Below, piece after piece: positions 40,334-45,175 of a stretch of 64,000 nucleotides of DNA; positions within the stretch are counted from its first letter, which is position 1; each line of letters starts with the position of its first letter. The DNA lies in contig WGLV01000003.1 in NCBI GenBank assembly GCA_016125385.1, positions 1 to 64,000 on the forward strand, written 5' to 3'. Under the pieces are notes generated by a model, which did no database searches, had not been told where the DNA came from, and saw only the letters and a program-made list of their open reading frames with translations. Source of the DNA: a bacterium. Its GTDB lineage: Bacteria > Hinthialibacterota > Hinthialibacteria > Hinthialibacterales > Hinthialibacteraceae. The position numbers and the translations under genes were made by a program.

Positions 40334-42406
40334 GTGGCATTCGAACGCAACCGACTCGGCATTGTGTATCCCGTCTTGTTCGCGGGGCCGGGCAACACCA
40401 ACTCGAATTTCCGCGGCGAGGCGCGCCGCGAGTACGTCAAACGCACCCTGCAATGGGTGATCGACGATCCCCAGTTCGTCACCGTCGAAATCTCGCGCAT
40501 CAAAAATTCCGCCACTCGCAAAGAAGCCGCTTCCATGCTGAAAGCGGCGCGCAAGTCGGGCGCGGTCGAAGAAGTGGTCTGGTGCGCGCAACTGGTACAG
40601 CTGATCAATGAAGACGGCATCGTTCCGGCGTCCGACATCAGCTCGCTGGATGAATACGACCGCGTCAAGGCGGTGGACCGGCTGAAAGAGTGCATCGACG
40701 AAGCCTGCGAGTATGGCGCCGAGAAATTCACGTTCTTCAGCGGCAAAGACCCGGCCATCATGCAGGGTCTCTCCGGCGAGGCGGCGGAGCGGGTACGCGG
40801 CGAAGCGATGGTTCAATTGCGGCGCTCGCTTCATGAAATCTGCCTCTACCTCAAACAGCAGAACAAAAAGCACAAAAGCGATTGCGTCCCGCTGTTGATT
40901 CCCTTCGACGCGCGGGTCAACCCGCCGGGAGTAACGCCATTTAAAGAAATGCTGATCGGCCCGGCCGACCGCGCTGAAGCCATCATCGAATCGGTGCGTC
41001 ATCATTACGGCCATGAAGAACTGGGCCTGCTGATAGACACCAGCCACGCCATCATCAACGGCGAAGGCCCCGACACGCTGAAGCGGATCGGCGCTTACGT
41101 GAAGCATATTCACGTATCGAACTGCATTCTCAACCGCAACAACCCCGACGGCGATCTGCGCTACGGCGACGTTCATCCCGCGTTCAATCTGCCCGACAGC
41201 GAACTGACCAGCCCGGTTCTGGCCGGCTATCTTCAGGCGCTGGCGGAATGCGGCTTCGAAGGCTCTTTCGCCTTCGAGATCAAGCCGCAGGATCATGAGA
41301 TTCCCGAAGACCTGACGGGAGCGGCCAAGTCGCTGTTTTACGGCGCCTGCAACCGCATCGAAGTCAACTACGCGCCGCGTCTGAATTACATTTACCAGTC
41401 ACGCAAGTTCTTGAGTGAAGGCGTTTGGGACCAGTTGTGCGAACTGCGTATCCATAAGAAATCGATCATCAAGGAGCGCATGCTCAAGCGCAAACAGCGC
41501 AAACAGCTCGCCTCCAACGGCCGCATGGTGATTCTTGCCGCCGATCATCCGGCTCGGATGGTCACTCACGACGGACGTAATCCCGTTGGCATGGGAGACC
41601 GGTTCGATTACCTCGGCCGTTGCGCCCGCGTCATGATGGCCTCCCGGGTTGATGGTTTGATGGCCACCGCCGATATCATCGAAGACCTGGTGCTGCTCGA
41701 CTATCTGCAGCAGGAAAAAACCGGCAAAAGTTTTCTCGACGAGCGCGTACTGATCGCCTGCATGAACCGCAGCGGCCTGTCGGGCGCCCGTTATGAATTA
41801 CTCGACCGCAACACCGCCTACCGCGACGCCAAAAAGATCAAGGAACTCAAACTGGACGGCGCCAAGATGCTGATGCGGCTCGCGGTTCCCGACCCCTATG
41901 ACCGCTACGCCCTTCAGACGATGGAGGAATGTTCGCGCAGCATCGAAATCTGTAACGAAATCGATCTGCCGGTGTTTCTCGAACCGCTTCCGGTCAAACA
42001 GATCGACGGTCAATACAAAGTGTTGATGAACGCCGACGACCTGATCCGCATCATTGGAGTGGCTTCGGGCCTTTCGCACTCCACCGCCAACCTGTGGCTG
42101 AAGATTCCTTACGTCGACAACTACTGGCGTGTGGCGCAATCGTTCTCCGGCCCGATTCTGATGCTGGGCGGCGCTTCGACCGGCAATCCCATCGACGTGA
42201 TCGAACAATTCGTCCGCGGCATGGGTGAAGGTGAAAACGTGCGTGGCGCGATGGTGGGCCGCAACGTGCTTTACCCCGGCGGCGACGACCCCGCCGCAGT
42301 GGCCGAAGCGGTGTGCGCTCTGGTGCATGAGGGCGTCTCGGCCAATGACGCCGTCAAGCGCATCCAGCCGATGCGCGGCGCGAAGATGGACCTGTTAAAG
42401 GTATAA
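40334..42406 (+). CDS. Fusion: xylose-isomerase-like TIM barrel plus Cgl0159-type aldolase-like barrel
   Basis: A 690-residue cytoplasmic protein from GTG 40334 (GAGGAG about 9 bases upstream). Residues 1-345 match the xylose-isomerase-like/AP-endonuclease-2 barrel. Its likely metal-site residues lie in VTVEISR, LGLLIDTSHA, VKHIHVSN, GDVHPAF and FAFEIKP. A basic linker (about 370-395, KKSIIKERMLKRKQRKQ) follows. Residues 395-690 match the Cgl0159 (beta/alpha)8 family: MVILAADHPARMV, GDRFDYLGRCARV, VDGLMATADIIEDLVLLDYL, ACMNRSGLSGA, DGAKMLMRL, FLEPLP, WLKIPYV, LMLGGASTGNP and GAMVGRNVLYP. Stand-alone Cgl0159 proteins sit in inositol clusters of actinobacteria. The fusion suggests isomerase and aldol-type steps in series on a sugar or keto acid. 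The pathway is not known. Confidence 0.82.
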   Translation: MAFERNRLGIVYPVLFAGPGNTNSNFRGEARREYVKRTLQWVIDDPQFVTVEISRIKNSATRKEAASMLKAARKSGAVEEVVWCAQLVQLINEDGIVPASDISSLDEYDRVKAVDRLKECIDEACEYGAEKFTFFSGKDPAIMQGLSGEAAERVRGEAMVQLRRSLHEICLYLKQQNKKHKSDCVPLLIPFDARVNPPGVTPFKEMLIGPADRAEAIIESVRHHYGHEELGLLIDTSHAIINGEGPDTLKRIGAYVKHIHVSNCILNRNNPDGDLRYGDVHPAFNLPDSELTSPVLAGYLQALAECGFEGSFAFEIKPQDHEIPEDLTGAAKSLFYGACNRIEVNYAPRLNYIYQSRKFLSEGVWDQLCELRIHKKSIIKERMLKRKQRKQLASNGRMVILAADHPARMVTHDGRNPVGMGDRFDYLGRCARVMMASRVDGLMATADIIEDLVLLDYLQQEKTGKSFLDERVLIACMNRSGLSGARYELLDRNTAYRDAKKIKELKLDGAKMLMRLAVPDPYDRYALQTMEECSRSIEICNEIDLPVFLEPLPVKQIDGQYKVLMNADDLIRIIGVASGLSHSTANLWLKIPYVDNYWRVAQSFSGPILMLGGASTGNPIDVIEQFVRGMGEGENVRGAMVGRNVLYPGGDDPAAVAEAVCALVHEGVSANDAVKRIQPMRGAKMDLLKV

Positions 42407-42453: not shown

Positions 42454-44154
42454 ATGCCGAATCTGACCGAACACATTCAGGCGCTTTCGTCGCCGCAGCG
42501 TCCGCCCGCGTTAACGGCGGCGCTGGGCGTGCTGTTGTTTCACGCGATGCGCATCGACCCGGCCAATCCCGATTGGGCTGGCGGCGATGCGTTGCTGTTT
42601 TCCGATGAGTTCACCGAACCGGCTCACAACGCGTTTTTACGCGCGGGGTGTCCCGCCGGCCGCCTGCCAGAAGCGGGTTTCCGCAGGTTGGAAGGCGCCT
42701 TGGGCTCGCGTGGGGTGTACGCCCTGGCTAACGCCGCCGACGCCACGCGCCTGTCGCGGTTGCGTGACGTGCCCGCCAACGTCACGGTGATCTGCACCGA
42801 CGTTCCGAACGACGCCCACCGCTGGCGAGTCGTTACTCTGGCGCAGGCGGGCGCGGACGCGTATTGCCGCGCTCTCGATGAACGCGACCGCACGGCGCCG
42901 CTGTGGATCGTGGCGCCCATCACCGGCTCGCGCCTGCTCGACGCGGGAGCGGCTGGCGCCGCCCTGCCGCCGCTGGCGGACCGAATGAAAAAACTCGGCA
43001 CCGAAACCGCATTCGATGTGCTAGCCCAGGTGAACCAGTTACGCGCCCAGGGCCGCGACATTCTCTCATTCGGCCTCGGCGAGCCGGCCTTCGACACGCC
43101 GGTTCACGTGAAAGAGGCGGCGCGTAAGGCGATCGCGGAAAACGAAACCCATTACGTCGGCAGCGCGGGAATCCCCAAACTGCGCGAATCGATCGCGGCG
43201 TACATTCAACGTACGCGTAATATTCCCTGCGACGCCGATGAGATCGTCGTCACGCCCGGCGCCAAGCCGGTGATGTTCGACGCCATGATGTCGATGATCA
43301 ATCCCGGTGATGAAGTAATCTATCCCAATCCGGGCTACCCGATCTATGAATCGGTGATCGACTGGATCGGAGGCGTGTCGGTTCCCCTGCCCCTGCTTGA
43401 AGAACGGAACTGGAACTTCACCATCGACGACTTGGCGCGGCTGATCACTCCGAAAACGCGCTGCATCGTGCTCAACTCGCCGGGCAACCCCTGCGGCAAC
43501 GTGCTGGAGGCGAATCTGCTGCGCGATCTGGCGGACCTCTGCAAACAGCGCAACCTCTGGGTCATCTCCGACGAAGTCTATTCGCAGATCATCTGGGGCG
43601 GCGAGCATCACTCCATCGCCTCCTTCCCCGGCATGAAAGAACGCACCGTCATCGTCGACGGATTTTCAAAAACCTACGCGATGACGGGCTGGCGTCTGGG
43701 CTACGGCGTGATGAACCGGGACCTGGCGAAACAGGTCGCCAAGATCGAGACCAACATCGATAGCTGCACCTGCGCGTTCACCCAGATCGCGGGCGTTCAC
43801 GCTCTCGACGGACCGCAGCACGAGTCGCATTACATGGTCGAACAGTTTGAAAAACGCGCGCATACCATCGTCGAATTGCTGAATCAGATCGATGGCGTGC
43901 GCTGTACCCGCGCGGGCGGGGCGTTTTACGTATTCCCCAACGTCACAGGCGCGTGCCGAAAACTTGGCTTGAAGTCCGCGAACGATCTGCAACGCGCATT
44001 GCTGCACGAGGCGGGCGTCGCTGTTTTGCCGCGCACGTGTTTCGGGCGCAAGAATCAAGGCGAAGAGCAGGAATACCTGCGGCTCTCTTTCGCCACCTCG
44101 ATGGAGAACATTCGCGAAGGCATCCGCCGGATGAAACAATTCATCGAGCGCTGA
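42454..44154 (+). CDS. Fold-type I aminotransferase with a degenerate transketolase-like N-terminal domain
   Basis: A 566-residue protein. Residues 172-566 are a complete class I/II PLP aminotransferase: DILSFGLGEPAFDTP, THYVGSAGIPKLRESIA, VVTPGAKPVMFD, NPGYPIYES, LNSPGNPCGNV, the ISDEVYSQI loop, and DGFSKTYAMTGWRLGY with the PLP-binding Lys. It resembles aspartate/aromatic aminotransferases. Residues 1-165 are extra: FHAMRIDPANPDW and the following LLFSDEFTEPAHNAFLRAGC track the N-terminus of transketolase. The GHPGG motif and the LSKGH histidine of active transketolase are missing, so thiamine diphosphate use is unlikely. The ATG at 42454 has AAGGA 5 bases upstream and lies 47 bp after the fused-barrel gene. 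Confidence 0.85.
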   Translation: MPNLTEHIQALSSPQRPPALTAALGVLLFHAMRIDPANPDWAGGDALLFSDEFTEPAHNAFLRAGCPAGRLPEAGFRRLEGALGSRGVYALANAADATRLSRLRDVPANVTVICTDVPNDAHRWRVVTLAQAGADAYCRALDERDRTAPLWIVAPITGSRLLDAGAAGAALPPLADRMKKLGTETAFDVLAQVNQLRAQGRDILSFGLGEPAFDTPVHVKEAARKAIAENETHYVGSAGIPKLRESIAAYIQRTRNIPCDADEIVVTPGAKPVMFDAMMSMINPGDEVIYPNPGYPIYESVIDWIGGVSVPLPLLEERNWNFTIDDLARLITPKTRCIVLNSPGNPCGNVLEANLLRDLADLCKQRNLWVISDEVYSQIIWGGEHHSIASFPGMKERTVIVDGFSKTYAMTGWRLGYGVMNRDLAKQVAKIETNIDSCTCAFTQIAGVHALDGPQHESHYMVEQFEKRAHTIVELLNQIDGVRCTRAGGAFYVFPNVTGACRKLGLKSANDLQRALLHEAGVAVLPRTCFGRKNQGEEQEYLRLSFATSMENIREGIRRMKQFIER

Positions 44155-44260: not shown

Positions 44261-45175
44261 ATGAAACTGACCATACAGGCGCCCGCAAGCTCAGCCAACC
44301 TTGGCTGCGGCTACGATACGCTGGGCGCCGCTCTCAACCTCTGTAACTCCTTCGAGATGAAACCCGGCGGACCCGGCGTCAGCCTGCATGCCAAAGGCGT
44401 GAACGGCGGCGAAATGGCCGCCATCTGCCAGCGAATGACCGAAATCGCGGCTTCTCTATTCTGCGAGCGGTCGGGCGCGGCGCCGGTTCCCTTCACTCTT
44501 CACATGACCAACCGGGTTCCCATCGCGCGCGGACTGGGCAGCAGCGCCACGCTGCGGCTGGCCGTGATGGCGGGGCTGAACCGTTTGACCGGCGCCGAAG
44601 TGGACGGCGCGCGCATCGTCCAGTGGTGTACCGAACTGGAAGGCTGCTCGGATAACGTAGCGGCCGCGTGGTACGGAGGGCTGGTCGCGTCCGGGATCGT
44701 GCATGGAGAGCTGAGGCATTACAAAGTCGAGTTGCCCGAATCGCTCGATTTCGTCGCGGTTTCTCCCTCGCTGGAAGTCTCCACCGACAAGGCGAGAGTG
44801 ATCTTCCCGCCGGAATTACCGCGCGAAGAAGCGGTGCATAACCTGTCGCGCGGAATCATGCTGGCGATGGCGTTTTCGCAGGGCGACTTTGAACGCATCG
44901 GCGACCTGATGGATGACCGGCTGCATCAACCCGCCCGCCAGGCGAATATTCCCGCGCTGAAACCGCTCTACGATGTGATTCATGCGGCGCGTGAGGCGGG
45001 CGCTGCGGGCGCTTATCTCAGCGGGTCGGGGTCGACCATGATGGCGATTACGCTGCGAAATAAAGAAAGCGTCGCCGACGCAATGCGGGAAGCAATTACC
45101 CGCTACGGCATGGAAAGTGAAACGCGATTTCTAAAGGCGGATAATCAGGGGTTGCGGATAAAAGTTTTTGAATAA
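44261..45175 (+). CDS. thrB: Homoserine kinase
   Basis: A 304-residue GHMP-family kinase that phosphorylates L-homoserine for threonine synthesis. N-terminal APASSANLGCGYDTLGAALNL is the ThrB signature, and VPIARGLGSSATLRLAVMAGLNRL is the ATP loop. LEGCSDNVAAAWYGGLVAS and the C-terminal GAAGAYLSGSGSTMMAI complete the family pattern. The ribosome site is weak (TGAGATAGTGCG). It has a terminator just upstream, so it is expressed separately from the aminotransferase. No other threonine gene is adjacent. It converges on lptB with a 16-bp palindrome between them. Confidence 0.94.
   Translation: MKLTIQAPASSANLGCGYDTLGAALNLCNSFEMKPGGPGVSLHAKGVNGGEMAAICQRMTEIAASLFCERSGAAPVPFTLHMTNRVPIARGLGSSATLRLAVMAGLNRLTGAEVDGARIVQWCTELEGCSDNVAAAWYGGLVASGIVHGELRHYKVELPESLDFVAVSPSLEVSTDKARVIFPPELPREEAVHNLSRGIMLAMAFSQGDFERIGDLMDDRLHQPARQANIPALKPLYDVIHAAREAGAAGAYLSGSGSTMMAITLRNKESVADAMREAITRYGMESETRFLKADNQGLRIKVFE

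Follow-up and report, generated by a model that had tools for sequence, protein, structure and literature searches.

A probable pseudo-transketolase domain fused to an aspartate-type aminotransferase in the OLB16/SURF-12 lineage

An aspartate-type aminotransferase of the OLB16/SURF-12 lineage carries at its N-terminus a degenerate domain homologous to the N (PP/TPP-binding) domain of transketolase. The fusion is encoded in the window, i.e. the whole 64,000-nucleotide stretch of contig WGLV01000003.1 that was analysed, by a single frame of 566 amino acids with no internal stops, and the same architecture is found in related genomes. There is good confidence both that this architecture is real and conserved and that the N-domain is a pseudo-transketolase. 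An earlier note on this DNA had called the architecture unfamiliar, and no report of a transketolase N-domain fused to an aminotransferase, or reused as a non-catalytic part, was found in searches of an open-access library of papers. The gene and its two domains are as follows.

42454 to 44154, + strand: whole fusion gene, degenerate transketolase N-domain plus aspartate-type aminotransferase (566-aa ORF; full-length frame in four relatives too)
42454 to 42969, + strand: degenerate transketolase N-domain, residues 1-172, homologous core ~15-157 (hhalign, PDB profile search, AlphaFold and Foldseek)
42970 to 44151, + strand: aspartate-type aminotransferase domain, residues 173-566 (Pfam PF00155, NCBIfam, nearest solved structures, invariant residues)

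Relationship of the N-domain to transketolase

Within the N-domain, three stretches are referred to below.

42511 to 42636, + strand: best-preserved transketolase segment, residues ~20-61, L..A...LLF..MRIDPANPDW...D.LLFS (invariant columns and alignment to TktN)
42712 to 42798, + strand: beta-alpha-beta unit, residues ~87-115, at the position of transketolase GDGE..EG.., here VYALANAADA (alignment and model)
42820 to 42924, + strand: residues ~123-157, RWRVVT...ALDER..APLWIVAPIT (the C-part's own hhalign match)

Comparison of the N-domain with twelve transketolase N-domains by hhalign in local mode gave an E-value of 4e-10 over residues 15-163; the reversed N-domain alignment gave 0.19. In global mode the E-value was 8.5e-11, compared with a best of 0.13 among 25 column shuffles. 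Searches of the PDB point to the same family: the single N-domain sequence (phmmer) retrieved the split-chain transketolase N component 6yak at E 0.002, and a profile of five N-domain sequences retrieved it at E 5e-7, with further transketolases weaker (E 0.015 and above). The NCBIfam transketolase model matches the window protein weakly (residues 24-62, E 0.01) and is matched by four of the five fusion members, at best with E 6e-4, and PF00456 gave a single match among the five fusion N-domains (Pfam, E 0.33). Across the five fusions 31 N-domain positions are invariant; in the best-preserved segment these are L20, A23, L27, M32, R33, D35, P36, P39, W41, D45, L47, S50 and A60. Towards the C-terminal end of the domain, the RWRVVT...ALDER..APLWIVAPIT segment aligns as the counterpart of transketolase fgWnVi.idGHD..ALdeA...rPtviIA.T.

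The predicted structure also resembles transketolase. An AlphaFold model built from three fusion sequences, with no transketolase rows, reached a pLDDT of 70 and a pTM of 0.70, and Foldseek with this model placed thiamine enzymes (MenD and transketolases) at the head of the list. The ten best matches had probabilities of 0.80-0.98 and TM-scores by query of 0.40-0.52, with values of up to 0.54 lower in the list; E-values were above 0.001 and the rmsd was 6-7 Å. Addition of four transketolase rows raised the pLDDT to 80, with nearly unchanged secondary structure and agreement of all five models, and the top Foldseek matches were again transketolases, although this second model shows compatibility only, because the added rows bias it by design. 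In the model, the beta-alpha-beta unit comprises strands at residues 88-91 and 110-114 and a helix at 94-101. The earlier note had claimed that the first ~165 residues, including FHAMRIDPANPDW (residues 29-41 of the 566-aa fusion protein) and LLFSDEFTEPAHNAFLRAGC (residues 47-66), track the N-terminus of transketolase, and had proposed a profile and AlphaFold comparison of residues 1-170 with transketolase N-domains. That comparison found similarity, and the claim is borne out by the profile, shuffle, PDB and structure results alike.

The catalytic elements of the transketolase N-domain are lost. Internal deletions leave the domain ~100 residues shorter in total than a 277-aa TktN, and alignment to TktN places the SGHxGG loop and the stretch holding the TGSLGQGLS helix among the deleted parts. 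SKGH has lost its KGH, the window protein reading SDEF and the relatives having variants, and the Mg/TPP motif GDGE...N is replaced by NAAD, DSDD, EAAD, DAAD and DSND across the five fusions. The alignment agrees with the earlier statement that GHPGG and the LSKGH histidine are absent. Pfam and NCBIfam found neither the Pyr (PF02779) nor the C (PF02780) domain in the fusion protein or in its two neighbours. With GHxGG, SKGH, GDGE and GSLGQGLS gone, established transketolase structures suggest that the N-domain would have no thiamine chemistry, and neither ketol transfer nor TPP binding is to be expected of it.

The aminotransferase part

The sole Pfam match in the 566-aa protein is aminotransferase class I/II at residues 202-559 (E 8e-70), and it covers PF00155 nearly whole (profile positions 2-360 of 361). 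The PLP lysine is K406, in DGFSKTYAMTGWR. The aminotransferase part (172-566 in the earlier note) appears complete with its lysine, as had been claimed. All five fusions have N345, D373, Y376, K406, R414, R543 and K271 unchanged, and among these the Schiff-base lysine, the Asp and Tyr at PLP and the carboxylate-binding arginine (K406, D373, Y376, R414, R543) align to 1j32 and 6f77. The nearest solved structures are the aspartate aminotransferases 1j32, 6f77 and 6f35; the NCBIfam model asp_aminotase_Arch scores 338 bits, under its cut-off of 550. Most probably, the fusion protein is a functional PLP-dependent class I aminotransferase of the aspartate type, like the AspAT of Phormidium or Sinorhizobium. 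In known AspATs the lysine of GGK takes the alignment position of Lys271 (GAKP here), a suggestive hint that aspartate may be the preferred amino donor.

Distribution and neighbouring genes

A search for the same fusion in other genomes, which the earlier note had suggested, found it in four further genomes with the long form open. Five genera of the OLB16/SURF-12 lineage have the fusion, which is present in five of the six genomes of the same family (among 14 genomes of the phylum). A search of 386 genomes with the N-domain profile yielded the five fusions and six weak matches only, the latter in open frames of 288-310 aa, a length that fits transketolase N subunits encoded on their own. In a collection of 84,980 species, two full-length fusions were present among the best 80 aminotransferase loci, with protein sequences the same as those of G004 and G002. 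The fused aminotransferases form one clade (support 100/99), indicating one origin, within a well-separated aminotransferase subfamily in which the Armatimonadota are the sister group; the tree was read without the G011 row, which was in the wrong frame and had a very long branch. One of the two full-length fusions from the large collection belongs to isolate SURF_12; the records L015 and L016 (SURF_12 and Zod_Metabat.949) are deposited as Candidatus Omnitrophota, and the OLB16/SURF_12 lineage has been wrongly classed as Omnitrophica (PMC10066038).

Two genes on the same strand flank the fusion.

40334 to 42406, + strand: partner gene of 690 aa, a xylose-isomerase-like TIM barrel (1-385) fused to a Cgl0159-like class I-type aldolase (396-659) (Pfam)
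44261 to 45175, + strand: homoserine kinase (ThrB), downstream (TIGR00191)

The isomerase-aldolase fusion lies directly upstream of the aminotransferase fusion in all five genomes and is found in exactly these five among 193 genomes; G003, of the same family, has neither fusion. Homoserine kinase is near the fusion in four of the five genomes, is located elsewhere in G004, and is also encoded by most of the phylum's other genomes, including ones that have no fusion. As a housekeeping gene that occurs independently of the fusion, it was set aside and probably does not belong to the module.

Unfused members of the aminotransferase subfamily show a further association with transketolase. A transketolase gene is near four of the 14 such members (loci L017-L029 and L031) and near none of the remaining, more distant aminotransferase loci among the best 80, counts that are approximate as flank lengths differ between loci. 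At two Actinomycetota loci the next gene downstream of the unfused aminotransferase encodes a complete transketolase (about 677 aa). At two Aerophobota loci a complete transketolase of about this length is also downstream, with an SHMT-GcvT fusion in between; the latter (L017:7194-10976 and L031:7218-11006) is a protein of ~1260 aa that joins serine hydroxymethyltransferase and the glycine-cleavage T protein, as identified by Pfam for the copy at L017.

Other genes of related function were also seen. The window's genome encodes a separate normal split TktN/TktC pair and, at L142:4269-6194, a second transketolase-like gene (641 aa) in an apparent sugar gene cluster, as read from the sequences. 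In one Armatimonadota genome (L029:7257-8729), a related aminotransferase gene directly abuts an FGGY kinase gene (gluconokinase/xylulokinase-like).

Conservation of the N-domain and alternative explanations

Identity across the fusions is 36-46% in the N-domain, compared with 69-84% in the aminotransferase. In the N-domain, pN is 0.35-0.46 against a pS of 0.63-0.79, and dN/dS is roughly 0.2-0.4, with dS near saturation. The much faster evolution and the lost catalytic motifs would suit a functionless relic of an accidental fusion, tolerated and in slow decay. However, the open frame has been kept in five genera, the 31 invariant positions persist, and non-synonymous change is well under synonymous change, so that a relic is unlikely. 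The N-domain is under purifying selection and is therefore not simply decaying, despite evolving faster than the aminotransferase; it is retained, if under looser constraint. The earlier description of the domain as decayed holds in so far as it is degenerate, but not as regards decay, and "degenerate but retained" fits better.

The closest solved relative of the N-domain is a split-chain TktN, and the presence of a TktN/TktC pair in the same genome raises the thought that the N-domain pairs in trans with the TktC subunit encoded at that other locus and serves transketolase as a substitute N-subunit or a regulatory one. Such pairing is very improbable, given that the thiamine-site elements SGHxGG, SKGH, GSLGQGLS and GDGE are absent and that a normal TktN already adjoins TktC in the genome.

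The sequence signal for transketolase is uneven: its strong part is within residues ~16-62 and nearly all of it is in residues 1-66. Residues ~63-122 on their own have no sequence similarity to transketolase, residues 71 to the end alone reach an hhalign probability of about 5%, and a Pfam search of residues 1-174 found nothing. Residues 1-170 could on these grounds be an unrelated small domain, transketolase-like only in the short motif at 20-62. Nevertheless, residues 85 to the end alone give a weak colinear match to TktN 213-251 in local mode (score 23.0), above the best of 60 shuffles (19.3), and the lack of a match for the C-part in the global-mode controls is misleading, since local mode did find one. 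Moreover, the whole transketolase-free AlphaFold model aligns to transketolases and the order of secondary structure agrees with theirs, which leaves little room for an unrelated domain.

The long form, taken to be the real protein in the earlier note, is supported by the full-length frame conserved in five genera. The argument offered for it there, a strong ribosome site, is weak: AAGGA is only 3 nt before the ATG of the window gene, and a consistent Shine-Dalgarno site at the fusion start is absent from the other four genomes. The case for the long form is therefore made from the frame conserved at the protein level and not from the ribosome site. Translation from M178, leaving the N-domain unexpressed, is extremely unlikely: although all five fusions keep this methionine where the two domains meet (RM..LGTE) and unfused homologues begin only a few residues earlier, several of these homologues have it too, no clear Shine-Dalgarno site precedes it in the five genomes, and the protein sequence encoded upstream of it is conserved.

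Possible origin and role

The pseudo-transketolase domain most likely derives from a transketolase PP domain that lost ~100 residues (GHxGG loop, SKGH histidine and GSLGQGLS helix) and had its GDGE replaced, with the beta-alpha core kept. Its source would have been a transketolase gene adjoining this aminotransferase, an arrangement still present in the Aerophobota and Actinomycetota. In these unfused relatives transketolase is downstream of the aminotransferase, not upstream, so that simple read-through of such a gene order would not have produced the fusion.

The inferred and most likely present role of the domain is that of a non-catalytic module for docking or regulation, which would tie the aminotransferase to the isomerase-aldolase protein or else sense a sugar phosphate. 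Such a role is favoured over a relic because the catalytic motifs are gone, selection is purifying and the isomerase-aldolase fusion is its constant company; docking, taken alone, is put forward as a tentative proposal. More speculatively, a repurposed pseudo-transketolase (docking or sugar-phosphate sensing) may couple the aminotransferase and the isomerase-aldolase protein in a two-protein, four-domain carbon-nitrogen module that replaced an ancestral aminotransferase-transketolase gene pair, a possible but doubtful reading under which the module would be undescribed.

Three phyla thus show a link between the aminotransferase subfamily and transketolase, one through a fusion and two through neighbouring genes. 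Outside the fusion lineage, the link suggests that both enzymes work in the same metabolic context, which may, speculatively, be serine/hydroxypyruvate or ketose metabolism, and the three-phylum pattern points to an unrecognised, biochemically testable connection of amino-acid transamination with pentose or ketose metabolism.

Comparison with known systems

The N-domain resembles split-chain TktN (6yak, PF00456) in the profile match, in beta-alpha order and in the MR.DP.NP.W...D....S segment. It differs in being ~100 residues shorter, in having none of GHxGG, SKGH, GDGE..N and GSLGQGLS, and in being fused to an aminotransferase with no TktC partner gene adjoining. The aminotransferase part aligns over its full length with the class I aspartate aminotransferases (1j32, 6f77, 6f35; NF041091) and shares with them the PLP lysine, the residues that partner it and the GxK motif; unlike them, it belongs to a separate well-supported subfamily, falls under NCBIfam cut-offs and has an extra N-terminal domain. 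The Aerophobota and Actinomycetota neighbourhoods (L017, L024, L025, L031) share with the fusion an aminotransferase of the same subfamily beside or near transketolase, but there the two are separate complete proteins in the opposite order, and the transketolase is full-length with intact motifs.

The reuse of degenerate enzyme domains in non-catalytic roles has precedents in many families. Human TKTL1 (transketolase-like 1), a homologue of transketolase, has a deletion within its thiamine-binding N-domain, and its activity is disputed; unlike the fusion, it keeps the Pyr and C domains and is not joined to an aminotransferase.
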